Positions 45,194-56,359 of a stretch of DNA of 56,919 nucleotides are shown here, one piece after another. Position numbers and translations under genes: made by a program. The stretch spans positions 1 to 56,919 of the forward strand of contig CAJBLH010000130.1 of the NCBI GenBank assembly GCA_903953895.1, read 5' to 3'. This DNA comes from an uncultured Desulfobacteraceae bacterium. GTDB taxonomy: Bacteria; Desulfobacterota; Desulfobacteria; Desulfobacterales; Desulfatirhabdiaceae. Within the stretch, counting starts at the first letter, position 1, and each line of letters opens with the position of its first letter. Under the pieces are notes generated by a model that had not been told where the DNA came from, did no database searches, and saw nothing but the letters and a program-made list of their open reading frames with translations.

Positions 45194-46726
45194 TCATTCC
45201 ATCGGCGTGATCGGATGTGCCTTCAGATATTCCAGCCGATTCAGGCCGTTGATGTAAGCTTTGGCACCGGCTGTGATTACATCCGGATCTGCGCCTCTTC
45301 CCATGGCCTCCAGCCCATTTTCTCGCAGCCGGACCGTCACCTCGCCCTGGGCATCGGTACCGCCGGTAATGGCGTTGATTGAAAATCGCAGCAGTTCAGA
45401 ACCGGTTCCGGTAAGCCCTGCAATGGCTTTATAGACGGCGTCGATGGGGCCGTTTCCGTATTCGGCGCCCTGAACCGGCCTGCCATTGATCAGAATCCGC
45501 ACGCTGGCCATGGGAAGAACGGTCGTGCCACTGGTGACATGCAGATAATCCAGGGCAAAGACATCATGGCTTTGCAGAATTCCCTCGGTAACCAGCACTT
45601 CCAGATCCTCATCCACCACATGCTTTTTCTTGTCGGCCAGTTCCTTGAATTTGGTAAAAACCAGTTGCAGTTCTTCATCCGATAGATCGTACCCCAAGTC
45701 CTTCAAGTGGGTACGCAAGGCATGACGGCCGGAATGTTTTCCCAGAACCAGTTTGTTGGTGTTCAGTCCGATGGCTTCCGGTTTCATGATTTCATAAGTC
45801 ATGGGGTTTTTTAAAACCCCGTCCTGGTGAATTCCGGCTTCATGGGAAAAGGCGTTGGCGCCGACAATGGCCTTGTTGGGCTGAACCGGAATGCCGGTAA
45901 TCATGCTGACCAGACGGCTGGTGGGATAGATGAATTCCGTCTTGATACCGGATGTGAATGAAAGATAATTGGGCCGGGTGTGCAGGGCCATGACGACTTC
46001 TTCAAGAGATGTGTTGCCGGCCCGCTCCCCGATGCCGTTGATGGTAACCTCCGCCTGCCTGGCTCCGGCGCAGATGGCGGCCAGGGTATTGGCTGTGGCC
46101 AGTCCCAGATCGTTGTGGCAGTGAACGCTTAAAACGGCCTGATGGATATTGGTGGTATGGGACATGACGTACTGAACCAGTTCGGCGTATTCCTGTGGGA
46201 TGGCGTATCCAACGGTATCCGGCAGATTGATGGTGGTGGCGCCGGCTGCGATGGCGGCTTCAAAAACCCGGCATAAGAAATCCCGATCGCTTCGAGAGCC
46301 GTCTTCGGCTGAAAATTCCACCCGTTCCGTCAAAGATCGGGCATATCGAACGGCTTCCACGGCTGTGGCGACGACTTCATCGCGATTCATCCGAAGCTTA
46401 TAAGTCAGATGAATGTCGGATGTGGCGATAAAAGTGTGTATCCGGGGAAATGCCGCATGCTGAATGGCGCCCCAGGCCCGATCGATGTCTTTTTTTGAAG
46501 TACGGGCCAGGGCGGCTACCTCGGTGTGTTTCAAGTGCCCGGCGATGCGGGATACCGCTTCGAAGTCGCCATCCGAGGCTGCCGGAAATCCGGCCTCCAG
46601 AACGTCTACTCCCAGTTTTTCCAACTGGGTGGCCAGGCGCAATTTTTCGCCGGTATTCATGCTGGCGCCGGGGGACTGCTCGCCGTCTCTTAATGTGGTA
46701 TCGAAAATAATGATGCGCTCGGTCAT
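45194..46726 (-). CDS. leuA: 2-isopropylmalate synthase
   Basis: 510 residues from ATG 46726 (AAAGGAG seven bases upstream; the frame to 46765 has no site). Condenses acetyl-CoA with 2-oxoisovalerate, committing carbon to leucine. Seen: [16 protein letters not shown] (metal Asp and catalytic Arg), [15 protein letters not shown] (metal histidines), [15 protein letters not shown], and a C-terminal regulatory domain (about 395-510, [20 protein letters not shown]) that binds leucine in homologues. Last gene of the branched-chain operon. Confidence 0.95.
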
Positions 46727-46826
46727 GATATTACTCCTTTTGTAAAAATGGGCCATGATCATCATTCGGACAGGGTTGTGCGAAAATGATGATGTCGAAA
46801 AAAGTCAAAATTGAAATTGGTTGACA

Positions 46827-48416
46827 TCAAGCGTCAACATGCCTGGACAGCTTATATTGAAAGCTGTCCGCCAGGGCATGCCAACTGGCTTCGATGATAT
46901 CTTCGGATACGCCGATGGTACTCCAGACATGGTCTTCATCCCTGGATTCGATAAACACGCGCACTCTGGCGGCGGTTCCCGCCCGCCCGTCGATGACGCG
47001 AACCTTGAAATCCACGAGTCTCATGTGATCCAGGTGGGGGAAAAAATTATCCAGCGCTTTACGCAGGGCGCTGTCGAGAGCACTGACCGGGCCGCTTCCT
47101 TCGGCTGCCGTAATTTCCTGTTTGCCGTCAACCGAAATTTTGATGGTGGCATGGGCGGAGCATGGCTGGTTTTTGTCTTTCTCGATGGTTACCCGAAACG
47201 ATTCCAACTCGAACAGGGGCTGGTACTGTTCGGTCAGTTTTTCCAGCAGAATCTTGAAAGATCCGTCGGCCACATCGAACTGATAGCCTTCTTGCTCCAT
47301 GCGCTTGATTTCAGAGACGACTTTCTGCCGATCCGATCCGTTCAGTTCGACACCGAGTTCCCGGGCCTTGTATTCCACATTGCTTTTGCCGGAAAGATCG
47401 GAAACCAGAACCTTGCGTTTGTTTCCAACCAGCACCGGATCAATGTGCTCATAGGCTCTGGGAAGCTTCATGATGGCGCTGACATGCACACCGCCTTTAT
47501 GAGCAAAGGCGCTTTTTCCCACAAACGGCATGTTGTTATGGGGTATCATGTTGGCGGTTTCACTGACGAACCGGGATAGTTTCTTCAGCCGTGAAAGGTT
47601 TTCAGAAGAGATGCAGGGCCGATTCATTTTCAGACATAATATGGGAATGATGCTGGTCAGGTCCGCATTGCCGCATCGTTCCCCGTATCCGTTGATGGTA
47701 CCCTGAACCATGGTTGCCCCGGCTTTTACCGCACAGATGCTGTTGGCTATGGCAAGGCCCGAGTCATTGTGGGTATGGATACCGATTCGGATGGGTGACG
47801 GACAGGGATGTTTTTTTTCCGCCACCACCTGATGCACCCTGGCGATCATCGGCTCAATGTCATAGGTCAGCGTGCCGCCATTGGTGTCGCAGAGAACAAT
47901 ACAGTCTGCGCCGCCTTTTACAGCCGCCGCCAGAGTGGACAGGGCATAATCCGGGTTGGCTTTATAGCCGTCGAAAAAATGTTCAGCGTCATAAATGACT
48001 TCCCGGGAATGGTCTTTCAGATACGCTACCGAATCATGGATCATGGCCAGATTTTCTTCCAGGGTATTGCCCATGATCTTTCCGACATGAAGATCCCAGC
48101 TTTTCCCAAAAATGGTGATAACCGGGGTTCGGGCTGCCAGAAGCGCCTGAATGTTGGGATCATCGCCGCAGGAAAATCCGGGCTTACGGGTCGAGCCGAA
48201 TGCGGCAAGTTTGGCATGCTTGAAATCAACCTGCTGCGCCAGCTCGAAAAACTGCAAATCCCTGGGGTTGGAGCCCGGCCATCCGCCTTCGATATAGTGA
48301 ATGCCGAAGTCATCCAGGCGCTGGGCGATCATGATTTTTTCTTCAGCCGAAAAATTGACATCTTCCCCTTGCGTGCCGTCTCTGAGGGTGGTGTCGTAGA
48401 GGTGAATCGGTTCCAT
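46827..48416 (-). CDS. cimA: Citramalate synthase
   Basis: 529 residues from ATG 48416 (AAAGGA five bases upstream). Same fold as LeuA but of the CimA family: IHLYDTTLRDGTQGEDVNFS, IEGGWPGSNPRDLQFF, IHTHNDSGLAIANS, and NGYGERCGNADLTSI. Condenses pyruvate and acetyl-CoA to (R)-citramalate, giving 2-oxobutyrate for isoleucine without threonine deaminase. It has a full C-terminal regulatory domain. Placing cimA in the ilv operon implies isoleucine comes from pyruvate here; leuCD, needed for both arms, are not in the window. Confidence 0.92.
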   Translation of the reverse strand: MEPIHLYDTTLRDGTQGEDVNFSAEEKIMIAQRLDDFGIHYIEGGWPGSNPRDLQFFELAQQVDFKHAKLAAFGSTRKPGFSCGDDPNIQALLAARTPVITIFGKSWDLHVGKIMGNTLEENLAMIHDSVAYLKDHSREVIYDAEHFFDGYKANPDYALSTLAAAVKGGADCIVLCDTNGGTLTYDIEPMIARVHQVVAEKKHPCPSPIRIGIHTHNDSGLAIANSICAVKAGATMVQGTINGYGERCGNADLTSIIPILCLKMNRPCISSENLSRLKKLSRFVSETANMIPHNNMPFVGKSAFAHKGGVHVSAIMKLPRAYEHIDPVLVGNKRKVLVSDLSGKSNVEYKARELGVELNGSDRQKVVSEIKRMEQEGYQFDVADGSFKILLEKLTEQYQPLFELESFRVTIEKDKNQPCSAHATIKISVDGKQEITAAEGSGPVSALDSALRKALDNFFPHLDHMRLVDFKVRVIDGRAGTAARVRVFIESRDEDHVWSTIGVSEDIIEASWHALADSFQYKLSRHVDA

Positions 48417-48453
48417 AAGTATCCTTTCAAAAAACATCCCTTGTCTTCAGCCG

Positions 48454-49506
48454 TTATTTACTGCGGTTTTCCGGTCGCAGCGAGCGGACGGCTGCCCCTG
48501 CCTGCCACATTTCAGACAGGCGGATGGCTTCAAGCTCTTCATGAAGTTTTTCCCGGTAATCCGGAGCGCTGTTGCGCTCGATGGTTCTGCGGGTTTCTTC
48601 TCCGGAGACCACACTTTCATACAGTTGATCAAACACCGGTTTGACCGCATCCCGGAATCGCGGCGACCAGTCGAGTGCGCCTCTTTGGGCGGTGGTGCTG
48701 CAATTGGCGAACATCCAGTCCATGCCGTTTTCAGCCACCAGGCGGATCAGGCTCTGGGTAAGTTCTTCAACGGTTTCATTGAAGGCTTCGCTGGGGCTGT
48801 GGCCATGTTTTCGAAGCAGGGTGTACTGGGCTTCCATGACCCCTGCCAGACATCCCATGAGTACTCCGCGCTCTCCGGTCAAATCGCTGTGAACTTCTTT
48901 TTCAAACGTTGTGGGGAACAGATATCCGGAACCGATGGCAATCCCCAGAGCAATGGCCCGCTCCCTGGCTTTGCCCGTATAGTCCTGATGAACGGCAAAG
49001 CTGGAGTTGATCCCGCTTCCCGCCAGAAAATTGGTACGAACCGTTTTGCCGGAGCCTTTCGGGGCTGCCAGAATCACATCGACAAAATCCGGAGGGATGA
49101 TGCCCGTCTGATCGCTGTAGACAATACCGAATCCATGAGAAAAATACAGGGCATCTCCAGGATTCAGGCAGAGCTTGATTTTTGGCCATGCCGCCACCTG
49201 ACCGGCATCGGAAAGCAGGTACTGAACAATTGTCGCTTTTTGGGCGGCGGCTTCCAGGGGAAACAGCGTTTTTCCGGGAACAAAACCGTCGGCTACCGCA
49301 CGATTCCAGGACTCGGTGCCTTCCCGCTGACCGACAATGACTTGAAATCCATTATCTTTCATATTCAGCGCCTGGCCCGGCCCCTGAACGCCATATCCCA
49401 GAATGGCGATAATTTCATTTTTCAGAACTGCTTTGGCCTGATCCAGAGTAAATTCAGAAGCGGTGATCACTTCTTCCGTAACGCCACCAAAATTGATTTG
49501 TGCCAT
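48454..49506 (-). CDS. ilvC: Ketol-acid reductoisomerase
   Basis: 350 residues from ATG 49506 (AAGGAG upstream). Isomerises and reduces acetolactate or acetohydroxybutyrate. NADPH site GYGVQGPGQALNMKDNG and the loop VGQREGTESW; magnesium ligands in DLTGERGVLMG and FNETVEELTQ; then MDWMFANCSTTAQRGALDW. From memory these motifs, and the C-terminal SEMWQAGAAVRSLRPE, are closer to Bacteroidetes/plastid-like enzymes than to the common proteobacterial class I (GYGSQGHAHALNL) form. Complete. Confidence 0.93.
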   Translation of the reverse strand: MAQINFGGVTEEVITASEFTLDQAKAVLKNEIIAILGYGVQGPGQALNMKDNGFQVIVGQREGTESWNRAVADGFVPGKTLFPLEAAAQKATIVQYLLSDAGQVAAWPKIKLCLNPGDALYFSHGFGIVYSDQTGIIPPDFVDVILAAPKGSGKTVRTNFLAGSGINSSFAVHQDYTGKARERAIALGIAIGSGYLFPTTFEKEVHSDLTGERGVLMGCLAGVMEAQYTLLRKHGHSPSEAFNETVEELTQSLIRLVAENGMDWMFANCSTTAQRGALDWSPRFRDAVKPVFDQLYESVVSGEETRRTIERNSAPDYREKLHEELEAIRLSEMWQAGAAVRSLRPENRSK

Positions 49507-49633
49507 TTTTATTACATCTCCTTGTTGAAGTATTATCATGGTTAAATTTTAAAAGGGTTGCTGGGATGTCGTCACTTACAGTTTTCATTTTCTCGATAAT
49601 GGGGAATTGAAAACGAATCTCTTGTTTTCCAGA

Positions 49634-50122
49634 CTATTTCGGTTCCCGGAACAAGGCTACAATACCGGTCCGGGCAATTTTTTTGATGCCGATGGGCTTC
49701 AGTAAATTGATGATGGCTGCCAGTTTTCCCTCATCTCCGGTAACTTCGATGATATAGTGTTCAATCCCCGTATCCACGACTTTGCAGCGAAAAATATCCA
49801 CGATCCGCAGGACTTCGGCCCGGTGTTCGGGCTTGGCCTTGACACAGATCAATGCCATTTCCCGCTGTACGGCCTTGGATTTATCCATGTCGCGCACCTT
49901 GATGACGTTGATCAGTTTTCTGAGCTGTTTCATAATCTGTTCCAGTACCAGGGGGTCGGCCCGGGTGACCAGGGTGATCCGGGATATTTCAGGATCTGTG
50001 GTTTCTGCCACGCACAGACTTTCGATATTGAAGCCTCTGCCGCCGAAAAGTCCGACAACCCGGGCCAGAACGCCGGGCTGATTATCCACCAGCATGGTGA
50101 CAACATGTTTTTCTTCCGTCAT
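49634..50122 (-). CDS. ilvN: Acetolactate synthase small (regulatory) subunit
   Basis: 162 residues from ATG 50122 (GGAGG nine bases upstream); a longer frame to 50368 runs into ilvB and is not real. An N-terminal ACT domain (HVVTMLVDNQPGVLARVVGLFGG split over residues about 5-27, then FNIESLCVAETTDPEISRIT) and a C-terminal domain typical of IlvH/IlvN. Binds valine and gives feedback control to IlvB, encoded immediately upstream. Confidence 0.94.
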   Translation of the reverse strand: MTEEKHVVTMLVDNQPGVLARVVGLFGGRGFNIESLCVAETTDPEISRITLVTRADPLVLEQIMKQLRKLINVIKVRDMDKSKAVQREMALICVKAKPEHRAEVLRIVDIFRCKVVDTGIEHYIIEVTGDEGKLAAIINLLKPIGIKKIARTGIVALFREPK

Positions 50123-50148
50123 GTTGAAAATCCTCCATTCATACGAGG

Positions 50149-51849
50149 TTAAACCAGCAGCATTTCCGTAAGAGTCGCTCCGGCTGGAACCATCGGATAC
50201 ACACATTCCTCCCGATCCACCCAGAAATCCATGATCGCCGCCTGAGGTGAGGACAGGCCCTGCGTCAGGACCGACTCGACTTGATCCGGGCGCGTCGCTC
50301 GGAGACCCAGGGCACCATAAGCCTCGGCCAGTTTCACGAAATCCGGAGCATATTCCATGTCGGTGCATGCATAGCGCTTATTGTAGAACAATTCCTGCCA
50401 CTGCCGCACCATGCCCAGGTACCGGTTGTTTAAAATCACCACTTTCACCGGAAGGCCGTACTGAATGGCGGTTGCCATTTCCTGAATATTCATCTGAATG
50501 CTGCCGTCTCCGGCAATATCCACAACGAGCTTTTTCGGTTGCGCCACCTGCGCACCGATGGCGGCCGGAAGGCCAAAGCCCATGACACCCAGACCGCCCG
50601 ATGTGATGAAATGATCGGGAAAATCAAAGTGATAATATTGGGCGGCCCACATCTGGTTCTGCCCCACCTCGGTCGTGATGATGGCCTGACCCTGGGTGAT
50701 CCGATACAGGGTTTCCACCACGTACTGGGGTTTGATTACGGTCGTCTGATCGTAATTCATGGCGCCGGTCTGTTTCCACTGATCGATTTGATCCAGCCAG
50801 TCGTGCCGTTGCTTTTTCAGATCGCCGAAATCGATGGTTTCGATCAAGCGGTTCAATTCCGAGAGCGTGATCCGGCAATCGCCGACCAGGGGCAGCGATA
50901 CCAGAACATTTTTGCGGATCGAAGTCGGATCGATGTCGATGTGGACAATCTTGGCCTGGGCTGCAAACGCATCGGTCCGTCCGGTGACCCGGTCGTCGAA
51001 TCGGACGCCGATCGCAATCAGCAGATCACAGGCGCCCGTGGCCATGTTGGCCCGATAGGTTCCGTGCATGCCGATCATTCCCAGGCAGAGGGGGTCTGTT
51101 CCCGGAAATGCCCCCATGCCCATGAGGGATGTGGTAACGGGCATCATGGTTTTGCGGGCGAAGTCCGTCAGCTCTGCCGATCCTTTTGAGAGAATGACGC
51201 CGCCGCCGGCGAAAATCATCGGGCGCCGGGATTCCTGAATCAGGGCGATCACTTTTTCCAGTTGCCACTTGTTGGGCTGGTAGGTCGGGTTGTAGGATTT
51301 CATCCGAACCGGCTCAATCGGGGTGTAAGCTGTCCGGTTTTTGGCGACGTCCTTTGGAATATCCACCAGTACCGGGCCAGGTCTGCCGGATCGGGCGATA
51401 TAAAAAGCCTCCTTGAGGATTTTTCCCAGATCTTCGATCCGTTTCACCAGGTAATTGTGCTTGGTGCAAGGTCGGGTGATGCCGACAATGTCCACCTCCT
51501 GGAATGCATCGTTTCCGATCAGGTGGGTGGGTACCTGGCCGGTGATAATTACCACCGGGATGGAATCCATGTAGGCCGAGGCAATGCCGGTAACGGTATT
51601 GGTGGCTCCGGGGCCCGATGTTACCAGGCAGACGCCTACTTTGCCGCTGGCCCGGGCATATCCGTCCGCCGCATGAACCGCGCCCTGTTCATGCCGGACC
51701 AGGATATGCCGGATGGGGGTTTTGGCCAGTTCGTCATAGATGTCGATGACGGCACCTCCGGGAAACCCGAAGATGGTATCCACCCCTTCTTCCTGAAGTA
51801 CCGTCATCAGGATTTGTGCACCGGTCAACATATTTTCGTTGGGTTTCAT
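50149..51849 (-). CDS. ilvB: Acetolactate synthase large (catalytic) subunit
   Basis: 566 residues. ThDP enzyme making acetolactate or acetohydroxybutyrate. Seen: GVDTIFGFPGGAVIDIYD with the ThDP glutamate following (RHEQGAVHAADGYARASG), FAD region GMIGMHGTYRAN, and the ThDP/Mg motif GDGSIQMNIQEMATAIQ ending in ILNN. ATG 51849 follows AGGAG. It lies between ilvD and ilvN, with gaps under 30 bases. Confidence 0.96.
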   Translation of the reverse strand: MKPNENMLTGAQILMTVLQEEGVDTIFGFPGGAVIDIYDELAKTPIRHILVRHEQGAVHAADGYARASGKVGVCLVTSGPGATNTVTGIASAYMDSIPVVIITGQVPTHLIGNDAFQEVDIVGITRPCTKHNYLVKRIEDLGKILKEAFYIARSGRPGPVLVDIPKDVAKNRTAYTPIEPVRMKSYNPTYQPNKWQLEKVIALIQESRRPMIFAGGGVILSKGSAELTDFARKTMMPVTTSLMGMGAFPGTDPLCLGMIGMHGTYRANMATGACDLLIAIGVRFDDRVTGRTDAFAAQAKIVHIDIDPTSIRKNVLVSLPLVGDCRITLSELNRLIETIDFGDLKKQRHDWLDQIDQWKQTGAMNYDQTTVIKPQYVVETLYRITQGQAIITTEVGQNQMWAAQYYHFDFPDHFITSGGLGVMGFGLPAAIGAQVAQPKKLVVDIAGDGSIQMNIQEMATAIQYGLPVKVVILNNRYLGMVRQWQELFYNKRYACTDMEYAPDFVKLAEAYGALGLRATRPDQVESVLTQGLSSPQAAIMDFWVDREECVYPMVPAGATLTEMLLV

Positions 51850-51857
51850 AAAGACTC

Positions 51858-53531
51858 CTATTTGACAATCGCACCTGTGCTGGCGGACGACACGTTCCGA
51901 GCATACCTTGCCAGGTATCCGGACGTGATTTTGGGTTCAGGGGGCTTCCATGTGGAAAGCCTGCTTTGAATTTTGCTATCGGAAATATCCAGGGTGATGG
52001 TTTTTCCGGGGATATCGATGGAAATCAGATCACCTTCGCAGACAACCGCCAGGGGGCCACCCGATGCCGCCTCCGGGGAAATATGGCCGATTGCGGCGCC
52101 GCGGGTGCCGCCTGAAAATCGGCCGTCCGTGATCAATGCCACGGAATCATCCAGTCCCATGCCCGCGATGGCGGATGTCGGAGACAGCATTTCCTGCATA
52201 CCAGGGCCGCCTTTGGGCCCTTCATATCGGATGATGACAACATCGCCTTTGTGGATTTGACCCGATAAAATGGCCTGACAGGCGCTGGCCTCGGAATCGA
52301 AAACCCTGGCCGGCCCCTGGTGTCGGAGCATTTCATCGCGAACCGCTGACTGTTTGACCACACAACCGTCCGGCGCCAGATTTCCAAAAAGAACGGCCAG
52401 GCCGCCTTGCTTGTGATAGGGGTTATCCATGGTGCGGATGACATCCGGATTCAGGATGGCAGCCGAAGCGCAGGCTTCTACAACGGTTTTTCCGGTAACC
52501 GTCAGGCAATCCCCGTTGATCAGACCGGCATGCAGCAGTTCCTGCATCACGGCCGGAATGCCGCCTGCCCGGTATAGATCTTCAACATGATATTTGCCGC
52601 CAGGGCTTAGAGAACATAAATGTGGCGTTGCTTGGCTGATGCGGTTGATCAGATTCAGATCGAAATCCACGCTGGCTTCCCGGGCAATGGCGGCCAGATG
52701 CAAGACGGTATTGGTCGAGCAACCCAGCGCCATATCCACGGTCAGGGCATTGTGAAATGCTTCTGTTGTCAGGATTCTGCCGGGGGTGATGCCTTTTTCC
52801 AGAAGATACATGATCTTCATTCCGGTTTCTTTGGCCAGACGGATCCGTGCGGACATCACCGAGGGGATGGTGCCGTTTCCCGGAAGCCCCATCCCGATGG
52901 CTTCCGTCAGGCAGTTCATGGAATTCGCGGTAAACATACCGGCGCAGGAGCCGCAGGTGGGGCAAGCCGTATCTTCGATTCGAGACAGTTCATCTTCTGT
53001 CATTTTGCCGGATTTGACGGCGCCGACCGATTCAAATACCGAAATGAGATCGATTTTTTGCGGAGAGACGTGGATGGACGGGTGAATTCCCGCCAGCATC
53101 GGGCCGCCGCAGATGAAAATGGACGGCAGGTTGAGGCGGGCGGCGGCCATCAGCATCCCCGGAACGATTTTATCGCAACTGCTGACCATCACCAGAGCGT
53201 CGAAGGCATGGGCTGTTGCCATGATTTCAACGGAATCGGCGATGATTTCCCGGCTGGCCAGAGAGTATTTCATGCCCACATGGTTCATGGCAATGCCGTC
53301 GCAAACGCCAATGACACCGAATTCGACGGGTGTTCCGCCAGCCATGTAAATGCCGGCTTTAACCGCTTCCATAATGGTGTTCAGGTGGATGTGGCCAGGG
53401 ATGATGTCGTTGGCGGCATTGGCAATACCGATCATCGGCCTGCGAATTTCAGTGTCAGTATATCCCATGGCCTTTAAGAGCGACCGCTGGGGGGATCGTT
53501 CGATGCCGTTCTTGATAATTTGACTTTTCAT
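51858..53531 (-). CDS. ilvD: Dihydroxy-acid dehydratase
   Basis: 557 residues from ATG 53531 (AGGA five bases upstream). Dehydrates dihydroxyisovalerate and dihydroxymethylvalerate using an Fe-S cluster. Cluster cysteines are visible in SSCDKIVPG and [16 protein letters not shown]; the C-terminal [21 protein letters not shown] is the family signature. First structural gene of the operon. A leader-peptide attenuator lies between it and its promoter, about 30-230 bases upstream. Confidence 0.96.
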
Positions 53532-53561
53532 AAGTTTCCTGTGAGTATCGGGTTGAAGCAC

Positions 53562-53604
53562 AAAAAAAAATCCGTTATCAGCTTTTTGGCTGATAACGGA
53601 TTTT
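53562..53604 (-). terminator. Attenuator terminator of the ilv operon
   Basis: A perfect stem TCCGTTATCAGC (53571-53582) pairs with GCTGATAACGGA (53589-53600) around a six-base loop, extended by A-T pairs. On the minus strand it is followed by nine T (A run 53562-53570). It lies about 30 bases before the ilvD start codon and after the leader peptide, so it would stop transcription before the structural genes unless the antiterminator (53634-53645 with 53571-53582) forms. Confidence 0.9.
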
Positions 53605-53633
53605 CTTTAATTGAAAAGACAGAAAAAATCAGG

Positions 53634-53645
53634 CCATTATCAACC
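53634..53645 (-). promoter_or_regulatory. Antiterminator strand overlapping the leader stop codon
   Basis: The RNA segment GGUUGAUAAUGG here can pair with CCGUUAUCAGCC, the 5' strand of the terminator stem and its loop edge. That is 12 consecutive pairs with two G-U. This excludes the terminator. The segment contains the leader peptide stop codon (UGA), so a ribosome finishing the leader would cover it, while one stalled earlier would leave it free. Confidence 0.75.
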
Positions 53646-53723
53646 CGGCGCCTCGTAGGGGAGAAGAATTCCTACGAGGACAAGAATAAGGCTAATAAGG
53701 ATGACGATGGCTATAATTGTCAT
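53640..53723 (-). CDS. ilvL: ilv operon leader peptide
   Basis: 27 codons, ATG 53723 to TGA 53640. The peptide begins MTIIAIVILISLILVLVG and ends ILLPYEAPG. Ile (7), Leu (6) and Val (3) make up 16 of 27 residues, almost all in one run. These are the amino acids made by the operon that follows. A stalled ribosome on these codons would signal shortage. No Shine-Dalgarno is seen; the predicted transcription start is only about five bases upstream, so translation may be leaderless. It is analogous to, but not recognisably similar in sequence to, E. coli IlvL. Confidence 0.88.
   Translation of the reverse strand: MTIIAIVILISLILVLVGILLPYEAPG
53651..53679 (-). promoter_or_regulatory. Pause hairpin inside the leader
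   Basis: CCTCGTAGG (53651-53659) and CCTACGAGG (53671-53679) form a perfect nine-base stem with an 11-base loop, within the last third of the leader coding sequence. In ribosome-mediated attenuators such a 1:2 hairpin pauses polymerase so that the first ribosome catches up. Confidence 0.7.
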
Positions 53724-53734
53724 AAGTTTAGTTC

Positions 53735-53764
53735 AAAATACCAGCGATAATATCTTCTTGTCAA
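53735..53764 (-). promoter_or_regulatory. Promoter of the ilv operon
   Basis: On the minus strand there is a consensus TTGACA (53764-53759), an 18-base spacer and TATTTT (53740-53735). The start is predicted near 53728, just before the leader ATG at 53723. The -35 box is perfect; the -10 box is moderate. Confidence 0.6.
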
Positions 53765-53832
53765 GAAGTACTTTTCAGCGAAAATTCAAGGATGATGGTG
53801 ACATTCGGGCGGGAAAATGGTATAAGGCGCTG

Positions 53833-54375
53833 TCAAAAGTCATTTTTTCCTTTTTTTGTCTGCTCTCGTTCCCATGTAAACATTTCTTTTGCGATAACAT
53901 CAGAGACCAACTTCGCCTCAGTTTTCATAAAATAATCAAATTTTAGATTATATGAATAGTTATATCTTAGATAAGCGTTTGTTGTTTCTCCAATCCATGC
54001 ATAGAAATCATTATCTGATTGGGTCGGAAACCCAAGCCTGTCTTTAAATGCATTTAGAAGAGCTCTTTGGTTGTCGGACCCGGTACAGGTAATATTTATG
54101 GAATACAGCCTGCCATCCCAAAAAAGATACGAGATGCTTTCCACATTTGCAGCTCCAACTTTTATTTCATCCCCCGTGCGCTTATATGAAGATAAAACTT
54201 TGCCGGCGTACTGTTTTTTTTCGATGAGCTTCATGCCCTCTTTTGGTAAAGGATCACCCCACTTAATCCCTCTGAATCCGGTAACTCCTTCAGCCAGAAC
54301 CGGAGTCGAAAAACCAGAAACCGATAAAAACAGCAGGATAAAGCACAAAAACAAAACCAGTATTTTTCTTGGCAT
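53833..54375 (-). CDS. Exported protein of unknown function
   Basis: 180 residues from ATG 54375 (AAGGAAA seven bases upstream; the ATG at 54411 lacks a site). A strong signal peptide (KILVLFLCFILLFLSVSGF, cut probably near VLA). The mature part starts GVTGFRGIKWGDPLP, an N-terminal motif seen in several small periplasmic proteins, and contains paired aromatic strands (YLRYNYSYNLKFDYF). The C-terminus is lysine-rich. No domain is recognised. It lies upstream of the ilv leader region on the same strand and is probably separate from it. Confidence 0.75.
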   Translation of the reverse strand: MPRKILVLFLCFILLFLSVSGFSTPVLAEGVTGFRGIKWGDPLPKEGMKLIEKKQYAGKVLSSYKRTGDEIKVGAANVESISYLFWDGRLYSINITCTGSDNQRALLNAFKDRLGFPTQSDNDFYAWIGETTNAYLRYNYSYNLKFDYFMKTEAKLVSDVIAKEMFTWEREQTKKGKNDF

Positions 54376-54424
54376 TTCTGTTTCCTTTTTGAACTGATAT
54401 CGTAATTTCACAATAAGGTCAAAT

Positions 54425-54531
54425 TATAGACATTCAGAAAAATAAATTCGCTGCGTTATCGGTCGGGAATGGCCGAAAAATGCCTATTCCCTCCCTGCTG
54501 TCTTGCGAAATGCCTTTCCTGGAAGTTTATA
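54425..54531. repeat. 107-bp palindromic MITE-like element, copy 4
   Basis: Reverse-complement partner of the 9422-9528 copy: the same 107-base length, with about nine differences by hand alignment. Most differences are in one terminal arm (right end CCTTTCCTGGAAGTTTATA). The core GTTATCGGTCGGGAATGGCC is identical. It lies between the exported-protein gene and the divergent CoA-disulfide reductase gene. Confidence 0.85.
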
Positions 54532-54691
54532 GCAAAGTTAGTTTTTATAGTACAGTTTTTTTTAAGGTGACTCGATTTTTTTGAGAAGTTATGTTATCTC
54601 TCTTCTAGCGGATTTTCCTCCAGCGAAATAAAGCCGGCCGGAACAAAGATCAATGCCGAAAAATTAACGGATATATGAAAGGAGGTCGAGG

Positions 54692-56359
54692 ATGAAGGTC
54701 ATTATCGTTGGCGGAGTGGCGGGTGGTGCCTCGTGTGCGGCGCGCCTGCGCAGGCTCGATGAACTCGCTGATATTCTCATGGTAGAACGTGGGCCGTATG
54801 TTTCATTTGCCAATTGCGGACTGCCATATCATGTCGGGGGGGTGATCAAAAAAGAGTCGAACCTTCTGGTTGCCGATGAAGAGACGTTTCGGGTGCAGTT
54901 TTCCGTCGATGTCCGCACACGTTGCGAGGCTGTCGAAATTTCACCGAAAGAAAAGACGGTGATGTTGCGGGATGTTGTCACTGGTCAGAAGGTCATCCAG
55001 TCATATGACAAGCTGGTGTTGTCGCCCGGGGCGGTTTCCGTCCGTCCGCCGCTGCCCGGAATAGACCTCCCAGGGATTTTTCATGTCAGAACTGTGCCGG
55101 ATGCCCGAGAAATCCGGGCGTGGATCGATCATTCCGGCGGATTGCCGTCACGAAGATTCAGGCTGCGGGCGGTTGTTGTCGGTGGCGGGTTCATCGGCCT
55201 GGAGATGGTGGAAAATTTATTTCATCGCGGTATTGACGTTACACTGGTGGAAATGTTCGATCAGGTTCTGCCACCGATCGATATGGAATATGCACGCCTG
55301 GTCGAGGCGCTTCTGATAAAACAGGGTATCCGTCTGGCGCTGGGTGACGGGGTGGCTGCCTTCAGACAGGCTGAAAACGGTGTCATCGATGTCGAGACCC
55401 GATCCGGAAAGGCATATTCGGCCGATCTTGTGGTGCTTGCTCTGGGGGTGCGCCCGGATATCGCCCTGGCTAAAACTGCCGGCCTTGTAATCGGCGAGCG
55501 CGGAGGAATCCGTGTCGATGAACACATGCGGACGAGTGATCTGGATATTTTTGCGGTCGGAGATGCCGTCGAGGTCAAGGATTTCGTTACCGGCCAATGG
55601 AGTTTGATCCCGATGGCGGGCCCGGCCAACCGGCAGGGCCGGATTGCGGCCGATGTGATTTCAGGACGCAATTCCCGTTTTCGGGGCACGCAGGGTACTG
55701 CCATTGTCGGCTTGTTTGGTATGGCTGTTGCTTGGACGGGTGTCAGTGAAAAGATGCTGAACCGGATCGGTGATACGGATTATGAAAAAATTTATCTCTA
55801 TCCATTCTCCCATGCAGGGTATTATCCGGGCGCCAAGCCCATCACGATGAAAGTCATTTTCCGAAAATCCGACGGACGTCTGCTGGGTGTACAGGCCATC
55901 GGAGAGGATGGTGTCGACAAGCGGATAAGTATTTTGGCTGCCATGCTCCAAATGGGCGCCACGGTATATGATCTTGAAGAATCCGAGCTTTGCTATGCCC
56001 CTCAGTTCGGCAGCGCCAAAGATCCGGTGAACTTTGCCGGGATGATTGCCGCCGATGTCCTCCGGAACGATATGCCGGTGGTCCATTGGAATGCTGCTTC
56101 GGATGGATTCCTGCTGGATGTTCGAGAACCGAGGGAACTGGTCGTGGAAAAAGGTCCGGAAGGGCTCAACATCCCGCTGGGGCAGCTTCGGGCGCGTCTT
56201 TCCGAACTTCCCCGCGACCGAGAAATTTATATCACTTGCCGTTCCGGTCAGCGTTCCTATTATGCAACACGGATACTGCTGCAGAATGGATTCAAGGTCA
56301 GGAATATCTCCGGTGGGATACTGTCTCCGCTCCTCAACACCGGCCATGGTCACCAATAA
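54692..56359 (+). CDS. CoA-disulfide reductase fused to a rhodanese domain
   Basis: 555 residues. An FAD-dependent pyridine nucleotide-disulfide oxidoreductase: the FAD motif VIIVGGVAGGASCAARLRR at the start, active-site cysteine C42 in SFANCGLPY, a second NAD(P)-binding motif VVVGGGFIGLEMVENL, FAD contact IFAVGDAVEV, then the dimerisation domain. A C-terminal rhodanese domain (about 465-550) has its cysteine C516 in TCRSGQRSY. This CoADR-RHD/Npsr architecture reduces CoA-disulfides or persulfides and is linked to sulfur metabolism and oxygen tolerance. ATG 54692 follows AAGGAGG. It is monocistronic by position. Confidence 0.93.
   Translation: MKVIIVGGVAGGASCAARLRRLDELADILMVERGPYVSFANCGLPYHVGGVIKKESNLLVADEETFRVQFSVDVRTRCEAVEISPKEKTVMLRDVVTGQKVIQSYDKLVLSPGAVSVRPPLPGIDLPGIFHVRTVPDAREIRAWIDHSGGLPSRRFRLRAVVVGGGFIGLEMVENLFHRGIDVTLVEMFDQVLPPIDMEYARLVEALLIKQGIRLALGDGVAAFRQAENGVIDVETRSGKAYSADLVVLALGVRPDIALAKTAGLVIGERGGIRVDEHMRTSDLDIFAVGDAVEVKDFVTGQWSLIPMAGPANRQGRIAADVISGRNSRFRGTQGTAIVGLFGMAVAWTGVSEKMLNRIGDTDYEKIYLYPFSHAGYYPGAKPITMKVIFRKSDGRLLGVQAIGEDGVDKRISILAAMLQMGATVYDLEESELCYAPQFGSAKDPVNFAGMIAADVLRNDMPVVHWNAASDGFLLDVREPRELVVEKGPEGLNIPLGQLRARLSELPRDREIYITCRSGQRSYYATRILLQNGFKVRNISGGILSPLLNTGHGHQ

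Follow-up and report, generated by a model that had tools for sequence, protein, structure and literature searches.

The window analysed here is a 56,919-nt stretch of DNA from an uncultured Desulfobacteraceae bacterium (contig CAJBLH010000130.1), which carries on its minus strand genes in the order ilvD-ilvB-ilvN-ilvC-cimA-leuA, as assigned with NCBIfam models. ilvD is the first gene of this operon (51858–53531, ATG at 53531, TIGR00110) and ilvB, ilvN, ilvC, cimA, and leuA follow within 45194–51849. The cimA product scores 738 bits against TIGR00977, for which the cut-off is 450. Between 44900 and 53560, counting both strands, there are eight promoter-like sites where 7.2 are expected by chance, and seven terminator-like sites where 10.6 are expected. 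As neither exceeds chance, the interval is compatible with a single transcription unit, without proving one, and control of the whole ilvD-to-leuA operon by an attenuator ahead of ilvD is plausible. On the same strand, a 192-aa ORF (54411–53833) lies further upstream.

Promoter, leader frame and RNA strands ahead of ilvD

A predicted sigma-70 promoter occupies 53735–53764 on the minus strand, with TTGACA at 53764–53759, an 18-nt spacer, and TATTTT at 53740–53735. A preliminary description of this DNA had placed such a promoter ahead of the leader, and both boxes can be read directly from the sequence. Motif scoring makes it the top-scoring promoter-like site of 53300–54700 (10/12 matches), an interval containing four such sites against 2.8 expected. 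Of 101 non-redundant leaders from relatives, described below, 94 have a TTGAC no more than 110 nt before their ATG.

The leader frame MTIIAIVILISLILVLVGILLPYEAPG at 53640–53723 (minus strand; ATG at 53723, TGA stop at 53642–53640) was identified by sequence reading and by comparison with relatives. It comprises 27 codons, 16 of which, as had been claimed earlier, specify Ile, Leu, or Val and would be control codons for the end products of the operon. The predicted 27-aa peptide is short enough to be easily overlooked by gene callers. The leader stop lies 108 nt from ilvD with a strong terminator in between. Across the 101 leaders the Ile/Leu/Val fraction is 0.526 in the coding frame, compared with 0.235 and 0.066 in the other frames. 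Leader Leu codons shun CTG, which makes up 5% of them versus 40% in 34 ilvD bodies; the preferred codons are CTT, CTC, and CTA for Leu and ATT for Ile. A passage of PMC1183508 discusses CUA as a suitable Leu control codon in E. coli.

A Shine-Dalgarno-like word is absent from 75 of the 101 leaders, and with a stricter list of such words the motif is found at 14/101 leader starts versus 92/101 ilvD starts. The distance from the end of the -10 box to the leader ATG is 11 nt in the window, compared with ~30 nt in most relatives with a recognised promoter, and the predicted window 5' UTR, as estimated from the -10 position, extends only ~4–5 nt before the ATG. The window's leader transcript would therefore be nearly leaderless if this promoter is used. 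The rarity of Shine-Dalgarno motifs and this short predicted 5' UTR count against attenuation by a translated leader, as they do not account for its initiation.

Several strands of the leader RNA, all on the minus strand, can pair with one another. S1 (CCTTATTAGCCT, 53689–53700) lies within Ile/Leu/Ser codons, corresponding to codons 8–12 of the window leader, and was assigned from the minimum-energy fold and codon-permutation tests. S2 (GGGTTGATAATGG, 53646–53634) is a 13-nt strand that overlaps the leader stop codon, assigned from S2:S3 covariation and the position of the stop. S3 (53589–53604) is both the 5' arm of the terminator and the alternative partner of S2. The remainder of the terminator (53562–53588) consists of its loop, the 3' arm S4 (about 53582–53567), and a T run, and like S3 is assigned from sequence and covariation. 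Nested between S1 and S2 at 53651–53679 is a hairpin, termed a pause hairpin in the preliminary description, in which CCTCGTAGG and CCTACGAGG form a perfect 9-bp pairing of 53679–53671 with 53659–53651 that is evident in both sequence and fold. The intrinsic terminator TCCGTTATCAGC/GCTGATAACGGA is also as previously described, with a perfect 12-bp core and nine T at 53570–53562, the core being lengthened by A:T pairs.

The leader RNA has a folding energy of -56.9 kcal/mol compared with -30.0 (sd 3.6) in 200 shuffles, giving a z of -7.5. S1:S2 pairing is present in the minimum-energy fold of the window, and the sequence allows 12 continuous S2:S3 pairs, two of which are G-U. As S2 can pair with either S1 or S3, the RNA can form each of the helices 1:2, 2:3, and 3:4 known from the classical model. 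A full set of attenuation parts had been claimed for this region, and the promoter, peptide, hairpin, and terminator are all in place. However, no antiterminator had been listed; S2 supplies it, and the S1:S2 and antiterminator S2:S3 pairings are additions to the earlier list of parts.

Conservation and covariation in relatives

The upstream regions of ilvD were collected from 133 loci of the same order and nine named loci (L003–L011), the latter being the best named IlvD relatives, at 65–73% identity. They are Desulfobacterota, mostly Desulfobacterales by title or taxonomic placement, which makes it probable that the window's lineage is Desulfobacterales too. This set of 142 loci includes the window, and one species may occur in it twice, as a name and as a handle. 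It leaves out the last 19 ilvD matches listed (58–61% identity, one partial match excepted) and those not listed. Terminators were called by folding, as detection of perfect stems had missed members with a mismatch. Of the 142 upstream regions, 119 were called as having an Ile/Leu/Val-rich ORF with a terminator after it; the element is present, for example, in the cultured Desulfobacterales strain Desulfatitalea alkaliphila (L005). With two loci having <200 nt upstream dropped, this corresponds to 119/140, compared with 4/140 reverse complements and 0/280 dinucleotide shuffles. Relatives lacking the frame and terminator, had they prevailed, would have counted against the preliminary description; the majority instead retain both. 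Removal of 18 near-identical leaders left 101 of the 119 for further analysis.

The 21 negatives among the 140 were inspected by eye and fall into three kinds. Four (L091, L121, L125, L192) are members that the thresholds missed. In eight (L006, L149, L154, L156, L171, L180, L186, L198), ilvD follows the apparent end of cimA and is not at the operon head. The other nine (L007, L127, L136, L138, L184, L189, L195, L204, L215) have no leader and terminator directly before ilvD. The genomes of L127, L195, and L215 have the element elsewhere, before ilvB, cimA, and ilvB, respectively. A terminator core without a recognised leader precedes ilvD in L136 (G169:C166:4590-5390) and L138 (G046:C253:2595-3395), which are possibly decayed or remodelled attenuators.

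A comparison group of 71 loci (L012–L082), which is not purely unrelated as it contains a few Desulfobacterota by title, gave four calls (L036, L053, L059, L077). L077 is convincing as a member by eye. L059, from Veillonella sp. R32, has a 50-residue ORF with 23 Ile/Leu/Val residues and then a terminator 62 nt before ilvD, and is possibly a separate, unrelated branched-chain attenuator in a Firmicute.

Folding of the 101 leaders in silico gave different structures depending on the simulated position of the ribosome. When the RNA was freed as by a ribosome stalled in the control codons, S2:S3 formed, with ≥6 expected pairs, in 100/101. Placing the ribosome on the stop codon gave S3:S4 in all 101, and in the full RNA without a ribosome S1:S2 was paired in 99. 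In unoccupied RNA before S4 is made, the means are 7.3 pairs for S2:S3 and 4.7 for S1:S2, with values of 5.2 and 6.9, respectively, in the window. The average excess of S2:S3 at this stage suggests that silence without translation may be leaky.

The order of codons in the leader is also non-random. Compared with codon-permuted leaders, the native leader+S2 fold is better than the mean in 100/101 (mean z -3.1, window -3.5), and leader-to-S2 pairing is above the permuted mean in 93/101. The isolated S1:S2 duplex gives a weaker signal, with a mean z of -1.4 and p<0.05 in 37% of single sequences.

Covariation was assessed in two sets of sequences. In the 101 non-redundant leaders, 94.1% of S2:S3 cells are paired versus 92.2% (sd 0.2) with S3 reassigned among sequences, a value reached by 0/2000 permutations. 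In 50 sequences chosen from the phylum, 90.8% of S2:S3 cells are paired versus 84.9% when shuffled, and double-change cells number 34 versus 13.5, which none of 500 shuffles reached. Six of the 12 S2:S3 pairs are changed on both sides, equalled by 18/500 shuffles; column pair 9-72, for example, is G-C in 22 sequences and C-G in 15. For S3:S4 in the same 50 sequences, 96.7% of cells are paired, nine of 14 pairs are changed on both sides, and double-change cells number 64 versus 22.5 when shuffled. As the sequences are related and many pairs are invariant, shuffle controls overstate independence, and these figures are indicative and are not probabilities.

The leader stop lies within S2 in 75/101 leaders and starts two bases past S2 in 22, together 97/101. 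The first base of the stop is at +4 of S2 in 55, at +7 in 20, and at +15 in 22, with the remaining four at -2, -1, +18, or +26. Among the 75 leaders whose stop is at +4 or +7, 51 have a second in-frame stop immediately after it.

Proposed mechanism and alternative explanations

The region ahead of ilvD is very probably a ribosome-mediated transcription attenuator of the ilvD-ilvB-ilvN-ilvC-cimA-leuA operon, judging from its sequence and modelled folds. The presence of the parts, their conservation and covariation, and the non-random codon order are directly supported. From these sequences we infer that the leader is translated, that transcription terminates, and that starvation elicits a response. 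With an ample supply of charged Ile-, Leu-, and Val-tRNA, translation would proceed as far as the stop codon inside S2 and the ribosome would cover this strand, allowing the S3:S4 terminator to form and transcription to stop before ilvD. When any of the three amino acids is short, the ribosome would stall in the Ile/Leu/Val codons and mask S1, leaving S2 free. S2 would then pair with S3 before S4 is made, preventing the terminator from forming and allowing transcription of the operon. An untranslated leader would have S1 paired with S2, and the terminator would form. The role of S2, a strand of 13 nt, is directly testable. If correct, this mechanism would extend leader-peptide attenuation of the textbook type to a group of environmental importance in which sulfate reducers abound.

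Several other explanations can be weighed against attenuation. The terminator may only end transcription of an upstream gene, with the hydrophobic ORF being accidental, and the 192-aa ORF on the same strand would be a candidate for such a gene. However, a promoter-like site lies between this ORF and the leader, the terminator 5' arm covaries with S2, and leader and terminator occur together in 119/140 loci versus 0/280 shuffles, making this explanation very improbable. It is similarly improbable that the ORF is a functional small membrane protein for which the RNA structure is secondary. Around half of the residues are Ile/Leu/Val, with a recurring core like NLISLIIVLVVG by eye, which counts in favour of such a protein. 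Against it, S1 falls, by eye, on the N-L-I-S codons that recur among the leaders, and the frame in which the C-terminus ends differs between them (GLIMA, or a stop inside S2). The codon order, too, is non-random with respect to the leader+S2 fold.

A leader-peptide switch could also work chiefly through translation reinitiation or Rho and not through intrinsic termination. Leader starts mostly lack a Shine-Dalgarno motif, which fits this idea, and PMC4833913 contains a general proposal of reinitiation at leader genes. Against it, the strong terminator stands within the 108 nt that separate the leader stop from ilvD, and ilvD has its own Shine-Dalgarno in 92/101; a switch of this kind is hardly to be expected. 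The high conservation of an RNA sequence ahead of amino acid genes would also suit a ligand- or tRNA-binding riboswitch, such as a T-box or ppGpp riboswitch, accompanied by a chance ORF. However, scans of the window region and of six loci gave no Rfam match at gathering score, and the conserved stretches are the switching strands, leaving a riboswitch the least probable of these alternatives. The attenuation reading put forward in the preliminary description remains by far the best explanation, based on the 119/140 conservation of leader and terminator, S2:S3 covariation, and codon order.

Known leaders, spread and sequence constraint

Rfam scans covered window positions 53300–54000 and the loci L229, L234, L242, L253, L246, and L077, and no family reached its gathering score in either. 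The riboswitch and known-leader readings were rejected on this basis. His_leader (RF00514) gave 25.6 bits against a gathering score of 49; membership was rejected as the score falls below this threshold, and the architecture is shared.

In E. coli and Salmonella, the ilvGMEDA, ilvBN, and leuABCD attenuators combine a leader peptide in which the end-product amino acids abound with helices that exclude one another and a terminator before the first gene. The window resembles these in its Ile/Leu/Val-rich leader, exclusive helices, and terminator, but differs in its operon order, its inclusion of cimA, and the lack of a match to Rfam leader families at gathering score. In Staphylococcus aureus, ilvD is the first gene of the branched-chain operon. 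A leucine-rich attenuator peptide is reported for that operon in PMC5794164, a likeness drawn by description only; unlike the window's host, S. aureus is a Firmicute and, according to the title of that paper, uses CodY control as well. Attenuated operons of the E. coli and Salmonella type are listed in a passage of PMC1183508.

Similarity also extends to the ilvB-II, ilvB-OMG, and ilvB motifs, which are structured RNAs with upstream frames rich in branched-chain amino acids found before ilvB, from Corynebacterium, various phyla, and Leptospira, respectively (in part of PMC10272879). The 28 Rfam matches listed for the window region up to E 10 include no ilvB motif, so that the element is presumably distinct from ilvB-OMG to the extent that Rfam 15 contains these motifs. 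Candidate ilvB leaders of actinobacteria are alike in having short ORFs with runs of Ile, Val, and Leu, and terminators; passages of PMC1262725 describe their mode of regulation as unclear and report that a candidate codon substitution was without effect in Streptomyces coelicolor ilvB. Branched-chain attenuators or candidates are described for Corynebacterium, Streptomyces, Mycobacterium, and Leptospira in parts of PMC1262725 and PMC10272879, and Listeria also turns up by term counts.

No such element is reported for Desulfobacterota in the parts of the open-access literature searched. By term search, 'ilv' and 'leader peptide' are absent from the main text of Rodionov 2004 on delta-proteobacteria (PMC545781), and 'ilv' and 'desulfo' from the text of Naville 2010 (PMC2965389). 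The element is filed as a putative new RNA family, given the lack of an Rfam match, that would work by classical attenuation, with priority subject to Vitreschak 2004 and Lopatovskaya 2010.

Two covariance models, R1 and R2, were used to trace the element in samples that include genomes from which the models were built. In a phylum sample of 395 genomes, R1 found the element in 40 and R2 in 53. At E 0.001, R2 found it in 329/389 genomes of a class sample, or 189/201 among good genomes, and the class-sample genomes listed for R2 are all from the window's own order. The background in a control order (Clostridium relatives) was 10/147 at E 0.001, with a best value of 2.5e-5, and 0/147 at 1e-5. 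At the latter threshold R2 retained 44/395 genomes of the phylum sample, of which 29 are outside the order, indicating that the element is present in a minority of genomes there. It is therefore near-general in the order and occurs in a minority elsewhere in the phylum. Of the weak model matches in the genomes of named loci, five were inspected: L319–L322 do not look genuine but L318 does. L318 (G778:C26:86688-86778, E 3.8e-4) is a divergent member whose S2 GGGGTCGGTAATGG is matched by S3 CCGTTACCGACCCC, by eye an apparent compensated switch helix.

The gene that follows the element varies. The R1 search supplied 36 places for inspection, of which 34 are outside the order. With the next gene assigned by its best tblastn match to the window operon, it is cimA in 22, ilvB in six, leuA in three, and ilvD in one; the rest comprise one acyl-CoA dehydrogenase-like gene (L247), two aroK/aroC-like genes (L258, L260, by eye), and one place with none (L265). 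An Ile/Leu/Val-rich ORF was not found at 5/36 of the places examined. The class search supplied a further 25 places, of which 20 were picked mostly for a weak or absent ilvD match; here the next gene was ilvB in 21, ilvD in two, and cimA in one, with one contig end. The element heads cimA-then-ilvD in two further genomes and ilvB in a third. With ilvD, ilvB, cimA, or leuA as the next gene, the element tracks the operon head and not one gene, and the covariance model marks the heads of branched-chain amino acid operons in most sampled genomes of the order. Valine accounts for 13.4% of residues in the 101 ilvD-headed leaders versus 7.5% in cimA-headed leaders, the latter value coming from 17 of the 22 that were selected and typed by hand.

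Several features bear on why the strands are so conserved. With S2 as their common partner, S1 and S3 would have to resemble each other, and in 83/101 leaders the best 8-base match to the leader's own S3 core has ≤2 mismatches, whereas codon permutation predicts this in ~47. UGA-UAA has as its complement UUAUCA, which is AUU-AUC in the Ile frame. With S1 serving as the sensing codons, S2 carrying or preceding the stop, and S4 complementing S3, the sequence would be under a joint constraint. Across the leaders S1 is at about codons 6–10, where Ile/Leu/Val make up 61% compared with 56% elsewhere in the leader, a small difference; its codons are 30% I, 22% L, 13% N, and 11% S. UGA-UAA does not serve as the stop in the 22 leaders whose stop is at +15, and conservation there would come from pairing alone. 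In attenuators, according to part of PMC1262725, patterns shared by several helices are conserved over long distances.

It is tentatively proposed, at a little short of an even chance, that one ancestral attenuator RNA acts as the general branched-chain amino acid switch of the order and of scattered other Desulfobacterota lineages, and has been kept at the operon head (ilvD, ilvB, cimA, or leuA) through rearrangements. Its sequence may have been frozen by the genetic code, in that the S2 stops UGA-UAA have as their complement the Ile/Leu codons AUUAUC and CUUAUU, so that S1, S2, and S3/S4 would have to keep the same sequence. Most of its leader starts would lack a Shine-Dalgarno motif, and the family may be wider, as hinted by a Tyr/Phe-rich cousin ahead of aroK-aroC-like genes.

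At L247:419-501 an Ile-rich attenuator precedes the acyl-CoA dehydrogenase-like gene, which is not a biosynthetic one; its best NCBIfam model is acryloyl-CoA reductase, below the cut-off of that model. Leaders rich in Tyr/Phe with the same layout as the attenuator are found on the minus strand at L258 (G334:C86:30719-30801; MGYQLIMFTYQSVQDYYFFYYTWRGTGLPMD) and L260 (G306:C283:598-681). By eye, the next genes encode shikimate kinase at both loci and chorismate synthase at L258, and these leaders are a possible aromatic cousin of the attenuator.
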